In this document: piece by piece, positions 15,053-64,000 of the stretch
How positions within the stretch are numbered: position 1 is the stretch's first letter
How the letters are laid out: every line of letters begins with the position of its first letter
Assembly: GCF_030403505.1 (NCBI RefSeq)
Contig: NZ_JAUEMJ010000005.1
Location: 199,494-263,493, forward strand
Length of the DNA stretch: 64,000 bases
DNA from: Glycomyces tritici
GTDB lineage: Bacteria; Actinomycetota; Actinomycetes; Mycobacteriales; Micromonosporaceae
Reading direction: 5' to 3'
Made by a program: the position numbers and the translations under genes
Notes under the pieces: generated by a model
Database searches by the model: none
Told to the model about the DNA's origin: nothing
The model's input: the letters and a program-made list of their open reading frames with translations, nothing else

Positions 15053-16069
15053 ATGTCGACATCGCGAGGCGCGCGCCAGCCGACGATCAAAGAGGTCGCC
15101 ACGCTCGCCGGGGTGAGCCCGATGACCGTGTCCCGCACGCTCGCGGGCGGCGTGAACGTGCGGCCCGACCTCCAGGCGCGGGTGATGGCGGCCGTGCGCG
15201 AGCTCGGCTACTACCGCAACGAGAACGCGCGGAGTCTGCGCCCCGGCCAGCCCAGCGGTCTCATCGGCGTCGCGATCACCAACCTCGCCAACCCGTACTA
15301 CGGGAACTTCGCGCTCGGCGTCGAGGAGGTCGCCGCCGCGCACGGCCGGCGCATCATCCTCGGCAACACCGGCGAGGACGCCGGGCGCGAGCGCCAGCTC
15401 GTGAGCGACTTCATCGGCCGCCAGGTCGACGGCCTCATCCTGGTGCCGACCAGCGGCGACGCCGAGCACCTGCAACCGGAGCGGCTCGGGGACGTGCCGC
15501 TGGTGCTCGCCTCGCGCCGCGTGCCCGGCCTCGACGTCGACACGGTGCTCCTCGACGACGTGGGCGGCGCCTACCGCGGCACCGTCTCCCTGCTCGACGC
15601 CGGGCACACCCGCATCGGGTTCCTCGGCAACCGCAGCTCCGTGTTCACCGGCGAGCGCCGGTACCGCGGCTACGAGCAGGCGATGACCGAGCGCGGCGCG
15701 CCGATCGACCCGTCGATCATCGCCCGGGACCAGCAGGACGTGGAGGCCGCGAGCCGGGCCGCGCGGGCGATGCTCGACCACCCCGAGCCGCCGACGGCGA
15801 TCTTCAGCGCCAACAACCGCAACACGATCGGCGCACTGCGCGAGATCGGGCGGCGCATCCGCGACGGCCTCCCCGGGCCCCGCCCGGCCGTCGTGAGCTT
15901 CGACGACTTCGAGCTCTCCGAGCTCATGCCGGTCCCGGTCACGGTGATCGACCACGACGCGCGACTCCTCGGCCGCGAGGCCGCGACCCTCCTGTTCGCC
16001 AGGCTCGAGGGCACCGCCGAAGGCGAGCCGAACACGGTCGAACTGCCTGTCACGATCGAGCACCCCTGA
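15053..16069 (+). CDS. LacI-family transcriptional regulator of the mannoside-like operon
   Basis: A 338-residue repressor. The N-terminal helix-turn-helix and hinge helix are textbook (TIKEVATLAGVSPMTVSRTLAGGVNV, then AVRELGYYRNENARSLRPG), followed by a periplasmic-binding-protein-like sugar domain (LIGVAITNLANPYYGNFALGVEEVA). ATG 15053 follows GAGGAGGG at ideal spacing. A TAGGAT -10-like box lies about 27 bases before the start. It directly precedes a sugar kinase, ManA and ABC importer operon, and a perfect palindrome of LacI type lies between them at 16115. It therefore most likely represses that operon and responds to an imported sugar or its phosphate. Confidence 0.9.
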   Translation: MSTSRGARQPTIKEVATLAGVSPMTVSRTLAGGVNVRPDLQARVMAAVRELGYYRNENARSLRPGQPSGLIGVAITNLANPYYGNFALGVEEVAAAHGRRIILGNTGEDAGRERQLVSDFIGRQVDGLILVPTSGDAEHLQPERLGDVPLVLASRRVPGLDVDTVLLDDVGGAYRGTVSLLDAGHTRIGFLGNRSSVFTGERRYRGYEQAMTERGAPIDPSIIARDQQDVEAASRAARAMLDHPEPPTAIFSANNRNTIGALREIGRRIRDGLPGPRPAVVSFDDFELSELMPVPVTVIDHDARLLGREAATLLFARLEGTAEGEPNTVELPVTIEHP

Positions 16070-16114
16070 GGGTGGAACCCGCTCTGAACTGCCTGTTTGC
16101 CAAAACCCGTCCTT

Positions 16115-16134
16115 GGTTGGTAACGTTACCAACC
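16115..16134. promoter_or_regulatory. Perfect 20-bp LacI-type operator
   Basis: GGTTGGTAACGTTACCAACC is an exact palindrome with the central CG typical of LacI-family operators. It overlaps a plausible -10 (TAACGT, 16121-16126) placed 18 bases after TTGCCA (16097-16102), and ends 31 bases before the sugar kinase start. Binding here would block initiation of the 16166-26401 operon. Confidence 0.8.
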
Positions 16135-16165
16135 GTCAGGCAGTGCGGCAGGAGGGAGACGGGCG

Positions 16166-17050
16166 ATGGAGCTCTGCATCGACTTCGGCGGTTCCGAGAT
16201 CAAGCTCGGCATCCTCGACCGGGGCGAACCCGTGCGCACCGCGACCGTCCCCACGGGCGCGAGGGACCTCGAACAGGTCCGCGACGCCGCGGCGGCGCTG
16301 CTCGCCGAGACCACGCCCATGCAGGCCCCGGCAACCGTGGGCATCGCCGTCCCCGGCGTCGTCGACCGTGCCGCCGGCCGCCTCGTCAAAGCGCATGACA
16401 AGCACCCGCGTCTCGACGGCCTCGACCTGATCGCCTGGGCCCGCGAATCCTTCGGGCTGCGCGCCGTGATCGAGAACGACGCCCGCGCCGCGCTCATCGG
16501 CGAGACCGCCACCGGCTCCGCCGCCGGAGCGCGCGATGCGGTCCTCATGAGCCTCGGCACCGGCATCGGGACCGCCGCGCTCATCGACGGGACCCTCCTC
16601 AGAGGAGCGCACGACCACGCGGGCATCCTCGGCGGGCACTTCACCGTCGACTTCGCCGGCGCCCGGTGCAACTGCGGCAACATCGGCTGCGCCGAGTCCA
16701 TCGCCGGAGCCTGGGCCCTGCGCCGCGACCTCGCGGTGCGCGGCGACGCCGTCACCGACGTCAAGGCGCTGTTCGAGACCGACGACGACGCGGCACTCGC
16801 CTTGCGCGACAGGGCGGTCTGCGCCTGGGGCGCCACCGCCGTGTCGCTCTGCCACGCCTACGACCCCGAGGTCGTGATCCTCACCGGCGGCATCCTGCGC
16901 GCCGGGACCGCCGTCGCCGCACCGATCGAGGCGTACGTCCGCGAGCACCTCTGGACCAGCTCGCACCGGCCCGCCTTCGTCGTCCCCGACCGCCCCGACC
17001 TCTCGGTGCTGCGCGGCCTCGCCGCCCTCGCCGCCGATCCCCGAAACTGA
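16166..17050 (+). CDS. ROK-family sugar kinase
   Basis: A 294-residue cytoplasmic kinase with no DNA-binding domain. The N-terminal ATP phosphate loop is DFGGSEIKLGIL, the sugar/catalytic segment is VIENDARAALIGE with the catalytic Asp, the second ATP motif is SLGTGIGTA, and the ROK zinc cluster is CNCGNIGCAESIAG. The family phosphorylates glucose, mannose, fructose or amino sugars at the 6-OH. Directly following ManA makes mannose or fructose the best guess, giving fructose 6-phosphate for glycolysis. First gene after the 20-bp operator and 10 bases before manA. Confidence 0.9.
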   Translation: MELCIDFGGSEIKLGILDRGEPVRTATVPTGARDLEQVRDAAAALLAETTPMQAPATVGIAVPGVVDRAAGRLVKAHDKHPRLDGLDLIAWARESFGLRAVIENDARAALIGETATGSAAGARDAVLMSLGTGIGTAALIDGTLLRGAHDHAGILGGHFTVDFAGARCNCGNIGCAESIAGAWALRRDLAVRGDAVTDVKALFETDDDAALALRDRAVCAWGATAVSLCHAYDPEVVILTGGILRAGTAVAAPIEAYVREHLWTSSHRPAFVVPDRPDLSVLRGLAALAADPRN

Positions 17051-17060
17051 AGGAGCGCCA

Positions 17061-18890
17061 GTGTCCACCGTCCCTCTCGGACAGTACGAGAAGCAGCCGA
17101 CCGTCCCGCTGCCGGCCGGCGCCCGGGTCCTCACCGGCGCGAGCGCATGGACCGCCGCCGCCGAGACGGCCGCCGCGAAAGCGGGCGGGCGAGCACCGCT
17201 CCTCGTGGTCGACGCCTACCCCGGAGCGGACCTCCCCCTGCTCGCCGAACTGATCGCGGGCGCACTGCCGCAGTGGCGGGTCGTCGACGTCGAGGACGCC
17301 GCCGCGCTCCCCATTGCGCACATCGACGCCCGCTTCGCGGACAACCTCACCGAGGACCGGGTGTTCGGCGTCCTCTCGCACGCCACAGTGGACGCCTTCT
17401 ACGACGCCGAGCGCCTCGACAAGCTCGCCGTCGAGGTCGACGGCGCCGTCGAACCCACGGTCCTGCTCGGCTGGGGCGCCGACCTCGTCGCCCGGCGCCT
17501 CGCGCACCCGTACGCGCTGGTGCTCGCGGACATGGCCCGCTGGGAGCTCCAGCTGCGCCAGCGGGCCGGGGCCACCAACTGGCGCGCCGAGAACCCGGAC
17601 GAGGACCAGCTGCGCAAGTACAAGCGCGGGTTCTTCGTCGAGTGGCGCGTGGCCGACCGCCACAAGACCGCCATGTTCGACCGGCTCGACTTCGTCTTGG
17701 ACGCCAACGCGATCGGCGCCGCCGAGCCGACCGATCGCGCCGCCGGCATGATCACCGGCGAGGCCTTCCGCGCCGGCCTGCGCGACGCCGCGCACGCGCC
17801 GCTCCGGGTCGTCCCGTTCTTCGACCCCGGCGTGTGGGGCGGCCAGTGGATGAAGCAGAGGCTCGACCTCGACCCCGCCAAGCCCAACTACGCGTGGTGC
17901 TTCGACTGCGTCCCGGAGGAGAACTCGCTGCTCCTGGAGGACGCCGAAGGCGCCGTCGTCGAGATCCCCTCCCTCGACCTGGTGCTCGCGCAACCCGAAG
18001 CGCTGCTGGGGGAGCGGACCTACGCGCGGTTCGGCGCCGAGTTCCCGATCCGCTTCGACTTCCTCGACACCATGGAGGGCGGCAACCTCTCCCTCCAGGT
18101 GCACCCGCTCACCGACTACATCCAGCGCCACTTCGGTATGCACTACACGCAGGACGAGTCGTACTACATGCTCGACGCCGGGGACGACGCGGTCGTCTAC
18201 CTCGGCACCAAGGACGGCGTCGACCGGGACGCGATGCTCGCCGACCTCCGCGCCGCCGAGTCCGGCGAGCGGCCCTTCCCCGCCGAGCAGTACGTGAACG
18301 CGTTCCCCGCCAAGAAGCACGACCACTTCCTCATCCCGGCCGGCACCATCCACAGCTCGGGCGCGAACTCGATGGTCCTGGAGATCTCGGCGACCCCGTT
18401 CATCTTCACCTTCAAGCTCTGGGACTGGGGCCGCCTCGGCCTCGACGGCGTCCCGCGCCCGGTCCACATCGACCACGGCGAGCGCAACCTCGTCTGGAAG
18501 CGCGACACGGCCTGGACCGAGGCGAACCTCGTCAACCGGGTCGAGGAGATCAAGCGCGACGGCGACGGCGATCTCGAGAAAGGCAACGTCGAGGAGCGCA
18601 CCGGCCTCCACGAGCTCGAGTTCATCGAAGTGCGCCGCCACTGGTTCGCAGAACAAGCCGCCCACGACACGGAGGGCACCGTCAACGTGCTCAACCTCGT
18701 CGAGGGCGACGAAGTCGAGATCACCAGCCCCACCGGAGCGTTCGCGCCCTACACGATCCACTACGCCGAGACGTTCATCGTCCCGGCCGCCGTCGGCCCC
18801 TACGTCGTCCGCCGCACGGCCCGCTCCCGCAGCGAGCGCTTCGGGACCGTCAAAGCCTCGGTCCGCGGCACCCGGACCGGCGAAGCCTGA
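17061..18890 (+). CDS. manA: Class I mannose-6-phosphate isomerase, long form
   Basis: A 609-residue protein whose C-terminal part (about 240-600) is a type I phosphomannose isomerase cupin, interconverting mannose 6-phosphate and fructose 6-phosphate. Zinc-site residues are in NLSLQVHPLTDYIQRHFG (Gln and His, about 340) and in HFLIPAGTIHSSGAN (His, about 430). The N-terminal 240 residues (VDAYPGADLPLLAELIAGAL, then DNLTEDRVFGVLSHATVDAFYD) look like a degenerate P-loop kinase-like domain. The same long form occurs in other Gram-positives next to sugar operons. Starts GTG with GGAGCG upstream, 10 bases after the kinase gene. Confidence 0.85.
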   Translation: MSTVPLGQYEKQPTVPLPAGARVLTGASAWTAAAETAAAKAGGRAPLLVVDAYPGADLPLLAELIAGALPQWRVVDVEDAAALPIAHIDARFADNLTEDRVFGVLSHATVDAFYDAERLDKLAVEVDGAVEPTVLLGWGADLVARRLAHPYALVLADMARWELQLRQRAGATNWRAENPDEDQLRKYKRGFFVEWRVADRHKTAMFDRLDFVLDANAIGAAEPTDRAAGMITGEAFRAGLRDAAHAPLRVVPFFDPGVWGGQWMKQRLDLDPAKPNYAWCFDCVPEENSLLLEDAEGAVVEIPSLDLVLAQPEALLGERTYARFGAEFPIRFDFLDTMEGGNLSLQVHPLTDYIQRHFGMHYTQDESYYMLDAGDDAVVYLGTKDGVDRDAMLADLRAAESGERPFPAEQYVNAFPAKKHDHFLIPAGTIHSSGANSMVLEISATPFIFTFKLWDWGRLGLDGVPRPVHIDHGERNLVWKRDTAWTEANLVNRVEEIKRDGDGDLEKGNVEERTGLHELEFIEVRRHWFAEQAAHDTEGTVNVLNLVEGDEVEITSPTGAFAPYTIHYAETFIVPAAVGPYVVRRTARSRSERFGTVKASVRGTRTGEA

Positions 18891-18929
18891 ACTGCAACCC
18901 CACCCCCTTACCGAACAAAGGAGTTCGCA

Positions 18930-20189
18930 ATGCGATCCAGGAAGATCCCCGCCATCGCGGCCGCCGCTGCCGCCTCGATGCTGCTCGCCTCGTGCGGCGG
19001 CGGCAGCGCCGACGACGGCGCCACCACCGGCACGCTCGACTTCTACACGAACAAGGCCGCCTGGGAGCCCGACTTCGACGAGCTGAACGCGCAGAGCGAG
19101 TCCGACGTCGACATCAGCCTCGACACCACCGGCTACTCCGACGCCGCCCAGTACGACGCGTTCATCAAGCAGTCCTTCCGCACCGACAAGAGCCCCGGCC
19201 TCTTCACCTGGCAGACCGGCCCCTCCCTCGGCGAACTCGTCGACGAGGGCCTGGTCGCCGAGACCACGGACATCTGGGCCAAGGCCGTGGACGAAGGCTG
19301 GATCGGCGAGGACCTCAAGGACGCCTACACCTACGACGGCAAGCAGTACTGCGTGCCGATGAACATCGCCTACTGGGTCATGTACTACAACAAGCCCCTC
19401 TTCGAGGAGCACGGCATCGCCGAGCCCGCCACCTGGGCCGAGCTCGACGCCGCCGCCGAGAAGCTCAAAGGCGCCGGCGTCACCCCGTACTACCAGACCA
19501 GCACGCTGTTCACCTTCCCCTGGTTCCAGCAGCTCGTCGCCGGCACCGACCCCGAGCTCTACAACGGGCTCGCCACAGGCGAAGTGAAGTACACCGACCC
19601 GCGCATCGTCGAGATCATGGAGACCTGGCGCGCACAGCAGGAAGCGGGCTGGTTCAGCGACGCCGGCGCCACGGTCGACCCCGCCGTGGGCCTCAAGCAG
19701 GGCGACTTCGCGATGATCAACTTCGGGTCGTTCTTCAACGGCTCCCTCGACGGCGCCGGCATGGTCTCAGGCCAGGACTACGACATGTTCGTCATCCCCG
19801 CCGTGAACCCCGACCTCGGCACGACCCCCGTCGCGGTCGAATCGGGGCCGCTCTGCGTCGCCGAGAACTCCTCCCAGAAGACCCTCGGCCTCGCGTACGC
19901 CGAATGGTGGATGTCCCCGGACGCGCAGACCGCCTGGAGCGCCGCCCGCGGCGACGTCGCCTTCAACCCGCAGGCCGTCGTCGCCGACCCGATGCTCGAA
20001 GAGCTCGGCACCACCGTCGCCGGCGACGGGTACGAGCGGTTCGACCGCTACTACGAGGCCACGCCCACGCCGATCCTCACCGTCGCCCTCGAGCAGTTCG
20101 GCGCGTTCATCGCCAACCCCGGCGACCCGCTCCCGTTCCTGGAGGCCATCCAGGCCGAGGCCGACGCCTACTGGGCAGACCAGGGGTAA
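18930..20189 (+). CDS. Sugar ABC transporter substrate-binding lipoprotein
   Basis: A 419-residue extracellular solute-binding protein of the carbohydrate CUT1 type. A lipoprotein signal peptide ends in the lipobox LLASC, so the protein is anchored by its acylated Cys outside the membrane. The following low-complexity GGGSADDGATTG linker precedes the two-lobed binding domain (FYTNKAAWEPDFDELNAQS; WAELDAAAEKLKGAGVTP). AAAGGAG precedes ATG. It is followed at once by two permeases but by no ATPase, as in actinobacteria where one shared MsiK-type ATPase powers several sugar importers. The cargo is probably a manno-oligosaccharide, inferred from context. Confidence 0.9.
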   Translation: MRSRKIPAIAAAAAASMLLASCGGGSADDGATTGTLDFYTNKAAWEPDFDELNAQSESDVDISLDTTGYSDAAQYDAFIKQSFRTDKSPGLFTWQTGPSLGELVDEGLVAETTDIWAKAVDEGWIGEDLKDAYTYDGKQYCVPMNIAYWVMYYNKPLFEEHGIAEPATWAELDAAAEKLKGAGVTPYYQTSTLFTFPWFQQLVAGTDPELYNGLATGEVKYTDPRIVEIMETWRAQQEAGWFSDAGATVDPAVGLKQGDFAMINFGSFFNGSLDGAGMVSGQDYDMFVIPAVNPDLGTTPVAVESGPLCVAENSSQKTLGLAYAEWWMSPDAQTAWSAARGDVAFNPQAVVADPMLEELGTTVAGDGYERFDRYYEATPTPILTVALEQFGAFIANPGDPLPFLEAIQAEADAYWADQG

Positions 20190-55376: not shown

Positions 55377-56411
55377 GTGAGCAGCCTCGCCTCCAACGGC
55401 ACCGGCCGGGTGCCGGTCATCGTCCTGTCCGGTCACCTCGGCGCGGGGAAGACGACGTTGCTCAACCATCTGCTGAGCCGCCCGGGCGCGCGGGTCGGCG
55501 TGGTCGTCAACGACTTCGGCGCGGTGAACGTCGACGCCGCCCTGGTGACCGGGCAGATCGACGAGCCGGTGTCGATCTCCGGCGGCTGCCTCTGCTGCCT
55601 GGACGACGCCGGCGGCCTCGACCTCGCACTGGAGCGGCTGACCGATCCGCGCCGCCGACTCGACGCCGTCATCGTCGAGGCCAGCGGCATCGCGGAACCG
55701 GGCGCCCTGGCCTGGATGATCCGGGCCAGCAAGGTGGCGCGGGTGCGGCCGGGCGGCGTGATCGACGTCGTCGACGCGGTCGAGCACTTCACCACCGTGG
55801 ACCTCGACGGCCCGCCGCCCGCGCGGTTCGCCGTCGCGACGCTGGCGGTGATCAACAAGATCGACCGGCTCCCCGCCGACCGGGCCGAGTCCGCGCTCGC
55901 CGGGATCGAGGCGCGCATCCGCGAAGTCAACCCCGGCATCCACATCGTGCGCACCTCGCGCGGCCGGGTGGACCCTGAACTCGTGTACGACGTCGCCTCC
56001 GCCGACGACCCGCAGGACGAGCTTCCCCTTGCGGCGCTTGCCAGGCAGGCGCACCACCACGAAAGCCACCGGCACGCCGCGGCCGTGACCGTGCGAACCT
56101 CCGCCGCGGTGGACCCCGGCCGCCTGGTCGAACTGTGCGAGGACCCGCCGGAGGGCGCCTACCGGATCAAAGGCACGGTCACCGTCGAGACGGGCCGCCG
56201 CCTGCGGAGTTTCACGGTGAACGTGGTCGGCGACCAGGCCCACATCGCCGACCGCGCCGAGACCGCCCGCGGCAGCGAGCTGGTCGCGATCGGGACCGGC
56301 CTCGACCCGGAGCTCGTGCGACCGCTCCTTGACGCCGCCCTGGCGCCGACAGATCGCAGTGACCCCGATGGCCTGCGCCGGCTGCTGCGGCTGCGCGACC
56401 TGAGTCGCTGA
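55377..56411 (+). CDS. CobW/COG0523-family G3E GTPase (metal chaperone-like)
   Basis: A 344-residue GTPase. The P-loop is GHLGAGKT (19-26), the metal-binding CXCC is CLCC (71-74), and the G4-like NKID motif is in [13 protein letters not shown]-terminal CobW domain (about 230-335: [26 protein letters not shown]) follows a His-rich linker, HHHESHRH, which could bind metal. Members deliver or allocate Zn, Co or Ni and are often zinc-regulated. GTG 55377 is used. The predicted Fur/Zur-like box lies 4.8 kb away at the peptide locus, so any link is only suggestive. Confidence 0.85.
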
Positions 56412-57305: not shown

Positions 57306-58064
57306 TTACCCGAGCGGCCGGAACAGCAGCTGCGGGACGCCCTCGATGTCGATGCGGCTCACCGCGATCCGGTAGACCGGTTCGATCGTCTCCGGACGCA
57401 GCACCTCGGCCGGCGGGCCCGCCGCGGCGACGCGGCCCTCGTCCAGCAGGACGAGGGTGTCGCAGTACCGGGCCGCGAGGTTGAGGTCGTGCAGCACCGT
57501 GACCGTGCACAGTGGCAGGCGCTTGACCAGCGACAGGATCTCGTGCTGGTAGCGCACGTCCAGGTGGTTCGTCGGCTCGTCGAGCAGCAGGTGCGTGGCC
57601 GCCTGGGCGAGCGCCCGGGCGATGAGGGCGCGCTGGCGCTCGCCGCCCGAGAGGCCGCCTAGGGGGCGGTCGGCGAGGCCGTCGATGCCGGTCTGGCGCA
57701 TGGCCTCGTGGGCCGCGTCCCGGTCCTCATCGGTGTAGGAGCTCCAGCCGCCGCGGTGCACCGAGCGGCCCAGGAGCACCGATTCCCATACGGTCAGCGG
57801 GAACTCGCTGTGCTCCTCCTGCGCGACGGCGGCGAGGCGCTCGGCCCGCTCGCGCGGCTTCAGCGAGGCGAGGTCGTCACCGTCCACTGTGGCGGTGCCG
57901 CCTGCGCGGCGGACCGCGCCGAGGAGGGCGCGGAGCATGGTGGACTTGCCGCTGCCGTTGGGGCCGACCAGGCCGGTGACGCGGCCGTCGGCGGCAGTGA
58001 GGTCGACCCCGTCGAGAGCGGCGGTCCGGCCGTACGTGACGGCCAGACCGCTCGTCTCGATCAT
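57306..58064 (-). CDS. FecE/BtuD-type ABC importer ATP-binding protein
   Basis: A 252-residue cytoplasmic ATPase of an iron-siderophore/vitamin-B12-family importer. Walker A is GPNGSGKS, the signature is LSGGERQR and Walker B is LLLDEPTNHLD. The LTVWESVLLGRSVHRGGW segment is typical of this class. ATG 58064 overlaps the end of the binding-protein gene by four bases. It is the last gene of a three-gene operon (permease, lipoprotein, ATPase). Confidence 0.9.
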   Translation of the reverse strand: MIETSGLAVTYGRTAALDGVDLTAADGRVTGLVGPNGSGKSTMLRALLGAVRRAGGTATVDGDDLASLKPRERAERLAAVAQEEHSEFPLTVWESVLLGRSVHRGGWSSYTDEDRDAAHEAMRQTGIDGLADRPLGGLSGGERQRALIARALAQAATHLLLDEPTNHLDVRYQHEILSLVKRLPLCTVTVLHDLNLAARYCDTLVLLDEGRVAAAGPPAEVLRPETIEPVYRIAVSRIDIEGVPQLLFRPLG

Positions 58065-59032
58065 GCGGTGGCGCCTTCGATGAGCGTTGCGAGGCCGCGG
58101 AGCGCGCCCTGGTCGGGGTTCACGTCGGTGGCGCTGACACCGATGATCCGGTCGTGCTGCACCGCTTGGAGGTCGGTGGCTCCGGGCTCGGAGAGGAGCT
58201 TCGCCTTCGCGTCCTCGAAGCTCTCGCCGTAGCCGCCGTAGCTGAGGACGATCACCTGCGGGTCGGCGTCGAGCAGGGTCTCGAAGTTGGCCTCGAAGTA
58301 GGCGGACTGCTCGGCGGCGTAGACGTTCTCCAGGCTCGCGCGTTCCAGGAGGTCGTTGGCCATGCTGAGGCCGCCGTGGGCGCTCATGCTCGAGGAGGAC
58401 GACCAGTAGTAGACCGAGGCGGCCGTCTGCGTCTGGGCCGGGGCCTGCGCCTCCAGTTCGGACAGTTCGGCCTGGAAGCCCTCGATGCTCGCCGCGGCGG
58501 CGTCCTGGGTGCCGAAGACCTCGCCGTAGCGTTCGATGTCGGCGAAGACCGATTCGAAGCCGATCGCCTCGACCACGGCCTCGTCGTGGTTGCACTCGCC
58601 CGCGACGATGAGGTTCGGGATGCCCGCGGCCTCGAGCGCTTCCGGTGCGGCCGTGAAGAGCCCGTACCCGACGACGATGTCGGCTCCGGTGCCGATGATC
58701 GCCTCGGCGGCCGGGTCGGCCTGGTCGATGACCTCGATGTCGTCCGGCGGGTTCTGGAGCCCTTCGGGCAGCGGCGCTTCGAACTCGCCGGAGCGGGCGA
58801 TGATGCGGTCGGACGCCCCGGCCGCGTCGAGCAGCGCGACCGCGCTGTGCCCGATGGTGAGCGCCGCCTCGGGCTCGGCCTCGATGGTGACGTCCTCGCC
58901 GCAGTTCTGGACGGTGAGCGGGTACCGCGAGCCGGCCTCGGCGGACTGCTCGGTCGCGGGACCGGAGCCGCACGCGGCCAGGGCGAAGGTCAGCGCGGCC
59001 GCGGTCGCGGCCGGGATCAGATTGGGGCGCAT
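58061..59032 (-). CDS. FepB/BtuF-like metal-chelate-binding lipoprotein
   Basis: A 323-residue periplasmic-binding lipoprotein with a signal peptide and lipobox ending LAAC. The cluster A-2 type fold is seen in YPLTVQNCGEDVTIEAEPEAALTIGHSAVALLDAAGASDRIIAR and in ADIVVGYGLFTAAPEALEAAGIPNLIVAGECNHDEAVVEAIGF. Cys and His in the GECNHDE stretch could contact metal. The substrate class is siderophore, heme, cobalamin or a metal-peptide complex. It lies between the permease and ATPase and shares the divergent promoter region with the peptide-exporter side. Confidence 0.85.
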   Translation of the reverse strand: MRPNLIPAATAAALTFALAACGSGPATEQSAEAGSRYPLTVQNCGEDVTIEAEPEAALTIGHSAVALLDAAGASDRIIARSGEFEAPLPEGLQNPPDDIEVIDQADPAAEAIIGTGADIVVGYGLFTAAPEALEAAGIPNLIVAGECNHDEAVVEAIGFESVFADIERYGEVFGTQDAAAASIEGFQAELSELEAQAPAQTQTAASVYYWSSSSSMSAHGGLSMANDLLERASLENVYAAEQSAYFEANFETLLDADPQVIVLSYGGYGESFEDAKAKLLSEPGATDLQAVQHDRIIGVSATDVNPDQGALRGLATLIEGATA

Positions 59033-59062: not shown

Positions 59063-60142
59063 TCAGCGGGCGCCTTGGCGGCGCACCAGGACGATGAGCA
59101 GGGGCGTGCCCACCAGCGCGGTGAGGATGCCCAGGGGGATCTCGCCGGGGGCGAGCAGTGTGCGGGCCAGCGCGTCCGCCCACACCAGGAGGATCGCTCC
59201 GGCGAGTGCGGAGGCGGGGACGACGAGGCGGTGGGAGGCGCCGACCATGAGCCGCACGAGGTGGGGGACGACGAGGCCGACGAAGCCGATGGCGCCGGCG
59301 ACGGCCACTGCGGCGGCGACGGCGAAGCCGACGAGGAGAGCGGCCGCGGCCCGGAAGCGGGTGGGGTCGGTGCCGAGGCTGTGGGCGGCGTCGTCGCCGA
59401 TGGCGAGGGCGTCGAGCCTGCGTGCCCAGCCGGTCATGGCGAGGGTGACGGCGACGGCGGCGGTGGCGGCGATCGGCAGGGTGCCCCAGTGCGCTTGGGC
59501 GAGCGAGCCGAGTGACCAGAACATGACGGCGCGGGCGCCGTCGCGCGAGTCGGAGGCGAAGATCAGGAAGTTGGTGAGGGCGGAGAGCGCGAAGGCGACG
59601 CTGATGCCGGCGAAGACGAGTCGCGCGCCGATGAGGGTGCCGCCGGTGCGGGCGACGGCGAAGACGAGGGCGATCGCGGCGAGGGCGCCGACGAGGGCGG
59701 AGCCGGTGAGGCCGAGGACGCCTGCGCCGAAGCCGAAGAGGATGCTCGCGGCGGCGCCGGTGGAGGCGCCGGAGGCGACGCCGAGGAGGTAGGGGTCGGC
59801 GAGGGGGTTGCGCACGAGGGCTTGGACGGCGGTGCCTGCGACGGCGAGGGCGGCGCCGACGCAGGCGCCGAGGAGGGCCCGGGGGGCGCGCAGGCCCCAC
59901 ACGATGTTGTCGTCCGAGACCGCCCAATCGGCTGCGCCGTAACCGAAGAGGTGGTGGGCGAGGATGCGGGAGACGGTGCCCGCGTCGATGGGGACGGGGC
60001 CGACGCCGACGGCGATGGGGAGGGACGCGATGAGCACAGTGGCCAGCAGGGTGATCCACATCGCACCGAGGGTCGCGCGGCGTCGTCCCGGCGCGGTGGT
60101 GCGCGCCTCGACCTGCCTGTTCGGTTCGACCGCGGTCGCCAT
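59063..60142 (-). CDS. FecCD-type ABC importer permease
   Basis: A 359-residue membrane protein with about nine to ten helices and the FecCD/BtuC landmarks LRAPRALLGACVGAALAVAGTAVQALVRNPLADPYLLGVASGASTGAA and GFVGLVVPHLVRLMVG. A single permease gene implies a homodimer. Start codon ATG 60142 follows GAGAGGAG. It is the first gene of the importer operon, divergent from two ABC half-transporters, and the intergenic region holds a Fur/Zur-like box. Confidence 0.9.
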   Translation of the reverse strand: MATAVEPNRQVEARTTAPGRRRATLGAMWITLLATVLIASLPIAVGVGPVPIDAGTVSRILAHHLFGYGAADWAVSDDNIVWGLRAPRALLGACVGAALAVAGTAVQALVRNPLADPYLLGVASGASTGAAASILFGFGAGVLGLTGSALVGALAAIALVFAVARTGGTLIGARLVFAGISVAFALSALTNFLIFASDSRDGARAVMFWSLGSLAQAHWGTLPIAATAAVAVTLAMTGWARRLDALAIGDDAAHSLGTDPTRFRAAAALLVGFAVAAAVAVAGAIGFVGLVVPHLVRLMVGASHRLVVPASALAGAILLVWADALARTLLAPGEIPLGILTALVGTPLLIVLVRRQGAR

Positions 60143-60169
60143 GCGACTCCTCTCCGTGAAATTTCGGTA

Positions 60170-60197
60170 TTGACAATCGTTCTCAAAAAGCTAGCAT
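60170..60197 (+). promoter_or_regulatory. Sigma-70-type promoter overlapped by a Fur/Zur-like box
   Basis: TTGACA (60170-60175), a 16-base spacer and TAGCAT (60192-60197). The 15-mer TGACAATCGTTCTCA (60171-60185) fits the Fur/Zur pattern TGAxAAxxxTTxTCA and overlaps the -35 and spacer. This suggests metal-dependent repression of the half-transporters and peptide gene, and perhaps of the divergent importer. Confidence 0.6.
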
Positions 60198-60238
60198 GGG
60201 TGCCAGTCGTTCGCTCCAACCCCCCGAAGGGCGCTCCC

Positions 60239-61987
60239 TTGATCCACCTGCGGCTGATTCCCCTGGCCCGCAACGCCGCTCCGCTGATGGCGCTGCTCAT
60301 CCTGATCGGTGCCGCCGTCAGCGCGGCGGCGATCGGCCAGGCCCTGGTGACCGCCGAGATCTTCTCCGGCGTCACCACCGGGCAGCCCCTCACCGACCTC
60401 ACGGTCTGGCTCGGCCTGCTCGCCGCCGCCCTCTGCGCCCGCCCCGCCCTCGTCTTCGCCCGCGAACTGACCGTCCACGCCGTCGCCACCCGCTTCAAAT
60501 CCGACCTGCGCGCCCGCCTCCTCGACGCCCAGACCGAGGCCGGGCCGATCGCGCTGGGCCGCGAGCGCAGCGGCCACCGCCAGTCCCTCATGACCGACGC
60601 GGTCGAGAGCCTGGAGCCGTACTTCGGCCGCTACGTGCCGCACCTGGTCGTCACCGTCGTGACCTCGATCGGCGCGGTGGTCCTCCTCGCGTTCATCGAC
60701 CCGGTCGTGGCCGTCGTGACGGGCGCGGTCGCGCTCGCCGTGCCGCTCACGCCGCGGTTGTGGGACAAGCTCCTGGCCGACCGGGGCGAATCCCACTGGG
60801 AGGCCTACTCGGACCTCAACGCGGACGTGGTCGACTCCTTGCGCGGCATGACGACCCTGAAGGCGCTCAACGCGGCCGGACGCCGCCGCGGCGACCTCGA
60901 ACGCTCCTCCGGGAACCTCCTGGCCGCCACGCTGCGCCAGATGAAGATCTCCTTCATCGAGTCCGGGCTCACCGCCGTGTTCCTCCTTGCCGGGCCCGCG
61001 ATCGCCCTGGCCGTGGGCATCGCCCGCGTCGGCTCCGGCGCGCTCGAGGCGACCGCATTGTTCGCCGTCGCGCTCGTCGCCTTCGAGGCGTTCCGCCCCT
61101 TCAAAGAACTGGCCAACCACTGGCACGCCGGCTACTTCGGCGTCGCGGCCGGGCGCCGCATCCTGCCGATCCTCAACGCCCCCAAGCCTCCCGAACCGGC
61201 CCGCGCGGCCGACGGCCCCCGCTTCGCCCCCGAGGCGAACGCCGTCGAAGCGGTAGGGCTCGGCTTCACCTACCCCGGCGCCGCGACCCCGGCCCTCGCC
61301 GACGTGGACCTCGCCATCGCGACCGGCCGGACCCTCGCGGTCGTCGGCCCCTCCGGCTCCGGCAAGTCCACCCTCGCGAACCTCCTTCTGCGCCTGGCCC
61401 TGCCAACCGAAGGTGAGCTGCGCATCGGCGGCGCACCCACGGCCGACCTCACCCGCGAGCAGTGCACCGACGCCGTCGCCGTCGTCTCCCAATCGCCCCT
61501 GCTCTTCGCGGGCACGGTCGCCGAGAACCTGCGCCTGGTCGCCGCCGACGCCGACGACGCCGCCCTGCGCCGCGCCCTCGCCACCGCCGGAGCGACCGAA
61601 ATGGACGACGAGCGCCGCGGCGGCCTCGACACCCAGGTGGGCGACGGCGGCTCGCTCCTGTCCGGCGGGCAGCGCCAGCGCCTCGCCATCGCCCGCGCCC
61701 TCCTCAAGGACGCGCCGATCCTCGTCCTCGACGAGGCCTCCAGCGCCCTCGACGCCCGCCGCGAAGCCGAGGTCTACGCGGCGCTCGCGGGCAGGCGCAC
61801 CGGCTCCGGCGTCCCGGTGACCACAGTGGTCATCGCGCATCGGATCGCCTCGGTCCGCGAGGCCGACGTGATCTGCGTCCTCGACGCCGGACGGGTGGCC
61901 GAGACCGGCACCTGGGAGGAGCTCATCGCCCGCGACGGCCTCTTCGCCCGGCTTGAGCGCGCCCAGCGAACGGAGGTCGGCGTCTGA
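60239..61987 (+). CDS. ABC half-transporter 1 (membrane plus ATPase)
   Basis: A 582-residue half-transporter with six N-terminal helices (IHLRLIPLARNAAPLMALLILIGAAVSAAAIGQALV) and a C-terminal ATPase. Walker A is GPSGSGKS, the signature is LSGGQRQR and Walker B is ILVLDEASSALD. It lacks a C39 peptidase domain. It pairs with the next gene as a heterodimer (IrtAB/CydDC/RamAB-like), but cargo and direction are uncertain. TTG 60239 was chosen with GAAGGG at good spacing; an in-frame GTG at 60200 would lie at or before the expected transcription start. It overlaps the next gene by one base (TGATG). Confidence 0.8.
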   Translation: MIHLRLIPLARNAAPLMALLILIGAAVSAAAIGQALVTAEIFSGVTTGQPLTDLTVWLGLLAAALCARPALVFARELTVHAVATRFKSDLRARLLDAQTEAGPIALGRERSGHRQSLMTDAVESLEPYFGRYVPHLVVTVVTSIGAVVLLAFIDPVVAVVTGAVALAVPLTPRLWDKLLADRGESHWEAYSDLNADVVDSLRGMTTLKALNAAGRRRGDLERSSGNLLAATLRQMKISFIESGLTAVFLLAGPAIALAVGIARVGSGALEATALFAVALVAFEAFRPFKELANHWHAGYFGVAAGRRILPILNAPKPPEPARAADGPRFAPEANAVEAVGLGFTYPGAATPALADVDLAIATGRTLAVVGPSGSGKSTLANLLLRLALPTEGELRIGGAPTADLTREQCTDAVAVVSQSPLLFAGTVAENLRLVAADADDAALRRALATAGATEMDDERRGGLDTQVGDGGSLLSGGQRQRLAIARALLKDAPILVLDEASSALDARREAEVYAALAGRRTGSGVPVTTVVIAHRIASVREADVICVLDAGRVAETGTWEELIARDGLFARLERAQRTEVGV

Positions 61988-63780
61988 TGCGCCCCAACGG
62001 CAACGCGGCACTCCTGCGACCGGTCCTGCGCCTCGTCGACGTCGTCGGCGAGCACCGCGGCCTGTTCGTGCGCTCCACCCTCAGCATCGCCGCCTTCCAG
62101 GCGTTCGGCGCGCTCGCCTCGGGCCTGAGCGCCTACGCCGCGGCCGTCCTCGTCGCCGACCCCGCCGGCACCGGCCTCGCCCGGCTGCTCCTCATCGCCC
62201 TCGCCGGCGCGGTCATCGCCCACAGCGTCTTCGTGTGGGCCGAGTCGTGGATGAGCCACGTCCTGGCCTACAAGGTCCTCGACGCCCTCCGGCTGCGCCT
62301 GCACGACGCGATCGAGCGCATCACCCCCGGCGGCATGAAGCGCCGCCGCGCGGGCGAGGTCTCCGGCGCGGCCATGGCCGACATCGAGAGCCTCGAATGG
62401 TTCTACGCCCACACCGTCGGCGCCGCGATCTGCGCGATCGCCGGACCGCTCATCGTCATCGCGGCCCTCTTCGCGCTCGTCGGACCGGCCGCGCTCATCG
62501 CCCTCGCCGGTGTCGCCGCGCTCCTCGCGGTGCCCTGGCTCATGGGCCCCCTCCAAGCGCGCCAAGGCAAAGCGGTGCGAGACGAACTCGCCGAACTCAA
62601 GGCCATAGCCCTGGAAGGCGCCGAAGGCCTGCGCGAGATGCTCTCCCTCGGCCTCGCCGCCCACCAGCGGCGGCGCGTGCTGGACACGACCGCCCGCGTC
62701 CAGCGCCGCAAGCGGGCGTTCGCGCTCCGCGCCGGGGCCGAGAGCGCCCTCGCCGACCTCGTCGTCGCCGCCACCATGATCGCGTTCGTCGTGGCGCTGG
62801 CCTCGGCGGTGCGCGCCGGGAGCCTCGACCCGGCCCTGTTCCCGGCCGCCGTGGTCCTCCTGGCCGCCGCGTTCGCCCCCGCCGCGGGCGTCTTCCCGAT
62901 GTTCCAGCGGCTGGGGGAGATGTCCGCCGCCGCGACCCGCGTGCTCGACGTGCTCGACGCCCCCGCGCTGGTCGCGGACACCGACAAGGCCGCGACCGGG
63001 CCCCGGGCCGGCGCAGTCCGCTTCGAAGCGGTCGACTTCGCGTACGAACCCGGCACGCCGGTCCTCAAGGGACTCGACCTCGCCATCGCGCCCGGCGAGC
63101 ACGTGGCCCTCGTCGGCGCCTCCGGCGCGGGCAAGACCACCATCGCGCACCTGCTCATCCGCTTCTGGGACCCGGTCTCGGGCCGGATCGTCCTCGACGG
63201 CGAAGACCTCGCCTCGATGCGCCTGGCGGACGCCCGGGAGCGGATCGCGCTGATTCCCCAGCACCCCTACGTGTTCCGCGGGACCATCCGCTCCAACCTG
63301 CTCCTGGCCGACCCCGACGCCACCGAGCCCGCCATGTGGAAGGCCCTCGAGAGCGCGCAGCTCGCCGACACCGTGCGGGACTGGCCGGGCGGCCTCGACG
63401 AGCCGGTCGGCGAGAACGGCTCCACCGTCTCCGGCGGCCAGCGCCAGCGGCTCGCCATCGCGCAGGCGTTCCTGCGCGAACCGGACGTCCTGGTCATGGA
63501 CGAGGCCGCCGCGCACCTGGACGCCGTGGGGGAGCAGGCCCTCGCCCGCGCCGTCGCCGAGGTCCAGGCCGGGCGCACCACGATCGTGATCGCCCACCGC
63601 GTCTCGACCATCCGCCACGCCGACCGCGTGATCCTCCTCGTGGACGGCGCGGTCGCCGCCGAGGGCACGCACCCCGAACTGCTCGAGCGCAGCGGCGAGT
63701 ACCGCTCGCTGCTCGCCCGGGCCGCAGACCCCGGGGCGGCCGCCCCGGCCGTTCGTCGAACCACCGCTGAAAGGAGGTGA
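61987..63780 (+). CDS. ABC half-transporter 2 (membrane plus ATPase)
   Basis: A 597-residue half-transporter. Six N-terminal helices (LFVRSTLSIAAFQAFGALASGLSAYAAAVLVADP) precede an ATPase with Walker A GASGAGKT, signature VSGGQRQR and Walker B VLVMDEAAAHLD. The ATPase C-terminal switch His is in IVIAHRVSTIRHAD. The stop TGA (63778-63780) lies inside a perfect Shine-Dalgarno-like stretch, AAGGAGGTGA, that serves the next small gene, so the peptide is translated from the same transcript. The pair probably exports or imports the peptide or a metallophore. Confidence 0.85.
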   Translation: MRPNGNAALLRPVLRLVDVVGEHRGLFVRSTLSIAAFQAFGALASGLSAYAAAVLVADPAGTGLARLLLIALAGAVIAHSVFVWAESWMSHVLAYKVLDALRLRLHDAIERITPGGMKRRRAGEVSGAAMADIESLEWFYAHTVGAAICAIAGPLIVIAALFALVGPAALIALAGVAALLAVPWLMGPLQARQGKAVRDELAELKAIALEGAEGLREMLSLGLAAHQRRRVLDTTARVQRRKRAFALRAGAESALADLVVAATMIAFVVALASAVRAGSLDPALFPAAVVLLAAAFAPAAGVFPMFQRLGEMSAAATRVLDVLDAPALVADTDKAATGPRAGAVRFEAVDFAYEPGTPVLKGLDLAIAPGEHVALVGASGAGKTTIAHLLIRFWDPVSGRIVLDGEDLASMRLADARERIALIPQHPYVFRGTIRSNLLLADPDATEPAMWKALESAQLADTVRDWPGGLDEPVGENGSTVSGGQRQRLAIAQAFLREPDVLVMDEAAAHLDAVGEQALARAVAEVQAGRTTIVIAHRVSTIRHADRVILLVDGAVAAEGTHPELLERSGEYRSLLARAADPGAAAPAVRRTTAERR

Positions 63781-63787
63781 ATGAACC

Positions 63788-63910
63788 ATGAAGCAGCAGA
63801 AGAAGATCGCCGTCAAGCCGGTCGCGACCGAGCGCGCCGAGGAGAAGCTCCTCGCGCCGAACTCGAACAACCACGCGACGGTGTCCACCGCGTTCGCGTG
63901 GGCCCAGTAA
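63788..63910 (+). CDS. 40-residue peptide, candidate RiPP or metallophore precursor
   Basis: A short gene not matching a family that I can name. The peptide starts MKQQKKIAVKPVATERAEEK and ends LLAPNSNNHATVSTAFAWAQ. It has a basic N-terminus and a helix-prone middle, a possible leader, followed by a C-terminal stretch with Ser, Thr, Asn, His and aromatic residues, a possible core. It has no cysteine. It lies eight bases after two ABC half-transporter genes and has AAGGAGGTGA, fully complementary to the 16S tail, at ideal spacing (ends 63780). An ATG at 63781 in another frame is too close to this site. No modification enzyme is visible: the window ends after it. A weak GC-rich hairpin-like region follows, so a separate transcript unit may start off-window. 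Confidence 0.6.
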   Translation: MKQQKKIAVKPVATERAEEKLLAPNSNNHATVSTAFAWAQ

Positions 63911-63960
63911 GACACGGAGGCCGCCCCCGCGAGGCGGGCGGGCCCCCACCCAGGGGCGGC

Positions 63961-64000
63961 GCCGCCCCCCCCGGGGGGGGGGGGGGGCCCAAAACAAAAC
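63961..64000. repeat. Low-complexity C/G and A-rich end of window
   Basis: Runs of C and G (a run of about 15 G) followed by AAAACAAAAC, unlike the rest of the genome. This looks like an assembly or sequencing artefact at a sequence end and should not be read as biology. Confidence 0.75.

Follow-up and report, generated by a model that had tools for sequence, protein, structure and literature searches.

A small-peptide locus of Glycomyces tritici and its relatives: a probable ribosomal zincophore cassette with a putative iron-type sibling

At the right-hand end of a 64,000-nt stretch of the Glycomyces tritici genome (contig NZ_JAUEMJ010000005.1, positions 199,494–263,493; hereafter the window), a gene for a 40-residue peptide follows the genes of two ABC half-transporters, ABC1 and ABC2, and stands opposite a FecBCD-type importer. 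What is such a peptide made for, and does a metal control it? We propose that the locus is probably the left part of a cassette for a zinc-starvation-induced metallophore (zincophore) of the ribosomally synthesised and post-translationally modified peptide (RiPP) class, equipped with its own exporter and importer. A sister clade seems to possess a form of the same apparatus under iron control. From the order and conservation of the genes, the family and fold of the enzyme encoded in relatives, and the operator, we infer metal binding, the direction of export, re-uptake, the chemistry and all other steps after transcription.

The peptide gene (63,788–63,910 including the stop, plus strand, ATG start) begins 7 nt past the stop of ABC2 (61,987–63,780, plus strand), and a 10-base Shine-Dalgarno sequence, AAGGAGGTGA, lies at 63,771–63,780. 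The start of ABC2 is overlapped by the stop of ABC1 (60,239–61,987, plus strand, TTG start). Both ABC proteins match PF00664 and PF00005; their best NCBIfam matches, CydD for ABC1 and CydC for ABC2, fall below cut-off, and we do not claim a CydDC identity. On the minus strand are encoded a FecCD permease (59,063–60,142; PF01032, 283.6 bits), a FecB-type substrate-binding lipoprotein (58,061–59,032; PF01497, Peripla_BP_2; nearest solved chain 5cr9, E 1.2e-26) and a FecE-type ATPase (57,306–58,064; PF00005), which is kept in 11 relatives. The best match of this importer, an "F420-0 transporter", was below cut-off and is likewise not claimed. A sequence-only reading of the window had already named the peptide gene behind two half-transporters, its Shine-Dalgarno sequence and the divergent importer; the coordinates and, for the importer, Pfam (FecCD, Peripla_BP_2, ABC_tran) agree with it.

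Three homologues of the peptide were found in the protein database, 40–41 aa long and 90–95% identical, one of them from Glycomyces salinus, and the same neighbours surround the peptide in 11 other genomes, as that reading had required of related genomes. The peptide is thus not a chance open reading frame. Between the window and G. salinus, four of 41 codons differ nonsynonymously and three silently, which by itself is too few for measuring selection. No Pfam or NCBIfam family matched the peptide, and PADLOC gave no match for the peptide, YcaO1 or YcaO2 (the two enzymes described below) of the L001 locus.

The alignment of the three homologues and the window peptide was used for a profile search of genome contigs, which yielded four loci out of 37 pattern-matching stretches: Glycomyces salinus, Isoptericola sp. 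AK164, Brachybacterium tyrofermentans and Salinibacterium amurskyense. Each has a divergent FecBCD, then ABC1-ABC2, the peptide, YcaO1 and YcaO2 in this order. Whole-genome searches with YcaO1 were positive in 3 of 101 (E ≤ 1e-80), 5 of 396 (1e-150), 4 of 101 (1e-100), 4 of 200 (1e-120) and 2 of 398 (1e-120), with the L035 query in 17 of 213 (1e-100) and with the L038 query in 4 of 250 (1e-120); some genomes recur across these searches. The system is rare in most sampled groups and commoner in the family of genome G213. Stretches of up to 20 kb were taken around 12 and 15 of the matches.

The loci fall into two types. In the zinc type (n = 12: the window, L001–L004, L034, L037, L040–L042, L109 and L110), FecE-FecB-FecCD and ABC1-ABC2-peptide-YcaO1-YcaO2 diverge from a common box, the window ending after the peptide. 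In the iron type (n = 15: L035, L036 and L096–L108), FecBCD is followed by peptide-YcaO1-ABC1-ABC2, none of the 15 loci having a YcaO2 match; L107 departs from this order in its ABC and FecCD genes, which are rearranged. All 26 relatives, whether of the zinc or the iron type, keep FecBCD with the peptide. The YcaO1 tree unites the 15 iron-type sequences in one clade (100/100) and 11 sequences of the zinc type in another (95/96); therefore a single joint change altered the core, the regulator, the accessory gene and the gene order. Within the zinc clade, box, gene order and core persist down to 52% YcaO1 identity (L109 versus L002).

More distant YcaO1 relatives (L032, L033, L038, L039 and L043) have other neighbours and belong to neither type; neither box was found there, and no FecB or FecCD match. 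L043 (11,311–11,436, minus strand, genome G955) has a precursor with LAPNGNHNKVLSASFRW beside two YcaO genes; neither box and no FecBCD match accompany it. In L038 (8,742–17,917, genome G518) a YcaO1 relative and a candidate precursor with ALHNHHTALAPTFDWQKK lie before an importer of the oligopeptide type that includes two SBP_bac_5 proteins; this may be a third kind of transporter.

Which metal might control the zinc type? The 15-mer TGACAATCGTTCTCA (60,171–60,185) overlaps the promoter-like TTGACA-16-TAGCAT of the ABC1 transcript (60,170–60,197, plus strand), the one promoter pair found by the pattern scan (shuffle mean 0.0). The pattern TGANAAYSRTTNTCA occurs once in the 64 kb and in 0 of 100 shuffles; with two mismatches allowed it is still seen once, against 0.41 expected. 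The palindrome resembles a Zur site, and a similar one stands at the same place in the 11 relatives. The sequence-only reading had described a Fur/Zur-like element on this promoter, which was found as described; Zur is favoured over Fur because a Zur-like site is kept at the same position in 12 of 12 loci. There, in scans of about 200 nt ending just inside ABC1 (whose start is extrapolated in several loci), the site agrees at 8 or more of 10 informative positions, and at 9 or more in 11 of the 12 (Markov-shuffle p ≤ 0.007 each). A DtxR box upstream of ABC1 scored at best 12 of 19 in the 12 loci (p ≥ 0.07), and no box lies upstream of the peptide, as opposed to ABC1, in L040, L041, L042, L109 and L110. 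In the iron type a DtxR/IdeR-like site lies 61–77 nt upstream of the peptide in 15 of 15 loci (15–18 of 19 positions, p ≤ 0.001), and no Zur site was found in the 200 nt before the peptide (best 8 of 10, p ≥ 0.16, 15 loci). All these p-values are descriptive, since the consensus strings were general ones or were fitted to the first loci.

In the four named genomes the exact zinc pattern occurs at 2, 2, 6 and 1 sites, and its reversed control at none. One of these 11 sites is the cassette (L007); of the rest, read mostly by eye, five lie near recognisable zinc genes and five do not. The first five adjoin S14 ribosomal protein paralogues (L008 and L009, the latter also with L31 and a COG0523-like gene), ZnuA-like genes (L006, L011) and COG0523 plus FecCD (L015). 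Boxes flanking ribosomal protein paralogues, COG0523 and ZnuA-family genes are the typical Zur pattern. Exact sites were present in four of nine further genomes; of eight outside the cassette, three stand by ZnuA (L071), a COG0523-like gene (L076, by eye) or L28/S14/COG0523 (L079), and five do not. DtxR-type sites are separate from the Zur-like sites in the same genomes. For the iron box, six other sites were examined in G185 and G213: three have a ZnuA-family binding protein (L058) or Trep_Strep transport genes (L054 and, by eye, L063) as neighbours, and the other three have neither; this box is calibrated less well than the zinc box.

Two neighbourhoods of the boxes deserve mention. On the B. 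tyrofermentans contig of L003, which holds four exact Zur-pattern sites, a second FecBCD-like set and a COG0523-like gene (15,820–19,779) flank a 10/10 Zur-like box at 18,651. In the window, a COG0523/CobW-type GTPase gene (55,377–56,411, plus strand; PF02492, PF07683) lies about 4 kb from the Zur-like box and has no exact box of its own within the window; this family is often under Zur regulation.

The peptides themselves differ between the types. One His, one Thr and one Phe, besides LAPN, never vary among the 14 zinc-type precursors (the window, 11 relatives, P0001 and P0003), whose cores have one to four His and no Cys; in 12 aligned loci a Trp stands two residues past the Phe. The predicted window core, NSNNHATVSTAFAWAQ (63,860–63,907, plus strand), would follow a leader ending at the invariant LAP. 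That one His never varies leaves room for the N-terminal Cu/Ni (ATCUN-like) motif that the sequence-only reading had suggested for a cleavage before NNH, but cleavage after the invariant Pro would make the invariant His the fifth residue (NSNNH), not the third. The zinc-type pattern NxxxHxH...T-x-F-x-W contrasts with HCHH...[ST]-[FI]-A-W in the iron type, where VPHCHH...[TS][FI]AW is found in 15 of 15 cores, with one Cys and with Thr or Ser before [FI]AW. Past the precursor stop a stem-loop was predicted in 15 of 15 folded loci (z −0.8 to −3.8; 8 of 15 at or below −2). That of the window (63,921–63,941, plus strand) is the weakest, with z −0.8 for the 85-nt stretch. It may act as a read-through hairpin keeping the precursor in excess.

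The window contains no modification genes; its last ~40 bases (63,960–64,000) are a G/C run and then CCCAAAACAAAAC, which looks like a ragged contig end. In 11 of 11 zinc-type relatives the peptide is followed directly by YcaO1 and then YcaO2. Modification genes past the right edge had been anticipated, with YcaO among the candidates, and so had a peptidase; the former are there in the relatives, and a protease gene accompanies the system only in the iron type. Through both genomic tests, homologues and modification enzyme, the general idea of a metal-regulated peptide locus gained support. Lanthipeptide, radical-SAM, P450 and multinuclear non-haem iron oxidase (MNIO) readings were dropped, no such gene being among the conserved genes. 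The genes conserved between loci (YcaO, ABC, FecBCD and peptide; genes further out were not scanned) include neither MNIO nor nicotianamine synthase (NAS) or CntM-type enzymes.

YcaO1, a cyclodehydratase like LynD and TruD, retains its ATP motifs and ends in a PxP-type tail; YcaO2 is a degenerate YcaO that has lost the ATP motifs. The cut-off of TIGR03604 (SagD-family YcaO cyclodehydratase), 219 bits, is exceeded by YcaO1 of L001, L002, L035, L110 and L038; YcaO2 reaches only 121 bits in L001 and 78 in L002. LynD was the top fold match of a model of L001 YcaO1 built from 86 sequences (a four-sequence model with a pLDDT confidence score of 46 was dropped). Residues 102–288 match E1-like proteins and 107–743 match LynD, suggesting an E1-like C domain fused to YcaO; the full-length Foldseek alignment with LynD had E ~1e-35 but a root mean square deviation of 17 Å, and the residue ranges were taken from the VIA alignment instead. 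The leader-binding RiPP recognition element (RRE) model TIGR03882 scored 18.6–27.6 bits, below its cut-off of 36.9; residues 13–74 of the model form three strands plus helices, a stretch barely covered by the fold comparison. No dehydrogenase (B protein) is among the conserved genes, the flanks being scanned for it only in part. An S9-family peptidase stands beside the cassette in 14 of 15 iron-type loci and is absent from L035 and all 12 zinc-type loci. Two of 13 copies read (L096 and L097; genomes G1291 and G1292) have GMPHG in place of GMSHG and hence lack the nucleophile. Because of these absences and substitutions it is only a candidate leader protease. MusD has a PDB title that refers to peptidase activity mediated by YcaO, so where no protease is encoded YcaO1 itself might remove the leader.

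The simplest account of these observations is the following scheme. Under zinc scarcity Zur would leave the operator at 60,171, and both divergent transcripts would be made. YcaO1, a fusion of RRE-like, E1-like and YcaO parts, would bind the 40-aa precursor and cyclodehydrate its backbone, assisted by YcaO2 as a pseudo-enzyme. Thr34 is the most likely site, being the only Ser, Thr or Cys position that all the zinc-type cores seen have in common, and the product would be a methyloxazoline near the His and Asn ligands. This appears the most economical chemistry, though another YcaO chemistry is possible. Cleavage near the invariant Pro24 would release a His/Asn-rich core, which ABC1/ABC2 would export; outside it would bind zinc, and FecB-FecCD-FecE would bring the complex back. 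In the iron type a thiazoline would form at the Cys of HCHH.

Several facts weigh against this zincophore proposal. The YcaO genes lie beyond the window edge and are predicted from relatives; heterocyclisable residues are few in the core; and the zinc-type cassette has no protease gene. The candidate precursor of L033 (8,760–8,921, genome G015), with VTIPGNNNMVAPVQFEWAPEED, has no Cys, Ser or Thr near its F-x-W and, if real, would strain the azoline reading. The switch of regulator and core was seen once, an association without independent repeats. Outside the cassette only 5 of 10 and 3 of 8 exact sites stand by recognisable zinc genes, partly by eye; five of the nine further genomes have no exact site, four of them with a zinc-type cassette (cassette boxes 8–9 of 10); and several AT-richer iron-type loci have 9/10 Zur-like matches elsewhere, some inside genes, by chance. 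The exporter role of ABC1/ABC2 is putative, the same fold serving importers too, as in IrtAB.

The last point opens an alternative that we regard as improbable, in which ABC1/ABC2 import one metal chelate in the manner of IrtAB and FecBCD another, the modified peptide staying in the cell as a cofactor or zinc buffer. Type IV half-transporters can import siderophores, and the missing leader protease of the zinc type would suit a peptide that is not exported. However, the peptide gene sits 7 nt past ABC2 in the window and adjoins ABC or YcaO genes in both types, as for a precursor and its exporter, and the closest sequence families of ABC1/ABC2 are CydDC/MsbA-like exporters. It is equally doubtful that the box belongs to another Fur-family protein (Fe, Mn or Ni) and the product serves another metal: Fur-family boxes are alike and recognisable zinc genes adjoin only part of the other sites, but genes of the COG0523 and ZnuA families and of zinc-independent ribosomal protein paralogues lie beside the motif, and the same genomes have separate DtxR-type sites. 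Somewhat less remote, yet still unlikely, is a YcaO-modified antimicrobial or signalling RiPP induced by metal starvation, with FecBCD as a co-regulated importer of some other chelate and the half-transporters serving peptide export and immunity. Characterised thiazole/oxazole-modified microcins (TOMMs) are mostly antibiotics or toxins (excerpt of PMC4603692), and metal binding by the peptide is putative. Against this stand a core that is strongly conserved rather than hypervariable (LAPN, His, Thr and Phe in every zinc-type precursor), ligand residues that differ with the regulator (HCHH versus NxxxH), and the constant company of FecBCD in both types. We therefore keep to the zincophore proposal.

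How does the cassette compare with known systems? The cassette has in common with TOMMs, or linear azol(in)e-containing peptides, the E1-like plus YcaO architecture, ATP motifs and PxP-type tail of LynD-type enzymes. It differs in a core poor in Cys, Ser and Thr (TOMM cores are classed as rich in them; the zinc type has a single invariant Thr), in the second, degenerate YcaO, in having no dehydrogenase among its conserved genes and in the FecBCD adjoining under a Zur-like box. The known RiPP metallophores, to our knowledge, depend on MNIO enzymes and serve copper, and the known zincophores either come from non-ribosomal peptide synthetases (NRPSs) or are opines. Coelibactin of Streptomyces, which is under Zur control, is likewise a predicted peptide zincophore of an actinobacterium, but an NRPS product. 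Opine zincophores of the staphylopine type resemble the cassette in predicted zinc acquisition, dedicated export and FecCD- or oligopeptide-type import; actinobacterial opine clusters have FecCD importers in 14 of 24 cases, 10 with both FecCD and oligopeptide types (Morey and Kehl-Fie, 2020, PMC7438024), and both types also occur beside YcaO1 relatives (L038 with SBP_bac_5). The opine, unlike our candidate, is built by NAS/CntM-type enzymes and exported by major facilitator superfamily or EamA proteins, and is not a ribosomal peptide. Methanobactin and the captophorins/bufferins, copper RiPP metallophores (PMC13097082, PMC12538549), also start as gene-encoded peptides, are modified by enzymes and bind metal through heterocycles, but theirs is MNIO and copper, against YcaO and Zur- or DtxR-like boxes here.

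Of the described classes compared here, mobilisin comes closest (Cox, 2015, PMC4603692): these uncharacterised TOMMs, from Mobiluncus, Rhodococcus and further Actinobacteria, have a short peptide with little Cys, Ser or Thr. An actinobacterial fused cyclodehydratase with such a peptide nearby is what the cassette has as well. The description of mobilisin is limited to B, C and D proteins, automatic detection gave no precursor, and its section mentions neither a transporter nor a regulator or function. Among the matches listed from open-licence PMC, none connects YcaO RiPPs with Zur, DtxR or zincophores. If the proposal is true, a YcaO-built, Zur-controlled peptide adds a ribosomal route to zinc uptake, a new bacterial way of scavenging metal, and would suggest a function for orphan actinobacterial TOMM peptides poor in Cys, Ser and Thr. 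The zinc/iron pair would be a natural experiment in retuning a peptide ligand between metals, with cores short enough for synthesis. We see an even chance that this is the first ribosomal zincophore family with an iron sibling, in which one YcaO-built scaffold was retuned by changing the core and by exchanging Zur for DtxR/IdeR as regulator and a pseudo-YcaO for an S9 peptidase as accessory protein, the cyclodehydratase, exporter and FecBCD staying the same. By analogy, and with the same balance of confidence, the retuned scaffold may be the gene-encoded counterpart of thiazoline/oxazoline metallophores such as yersiniabactin.

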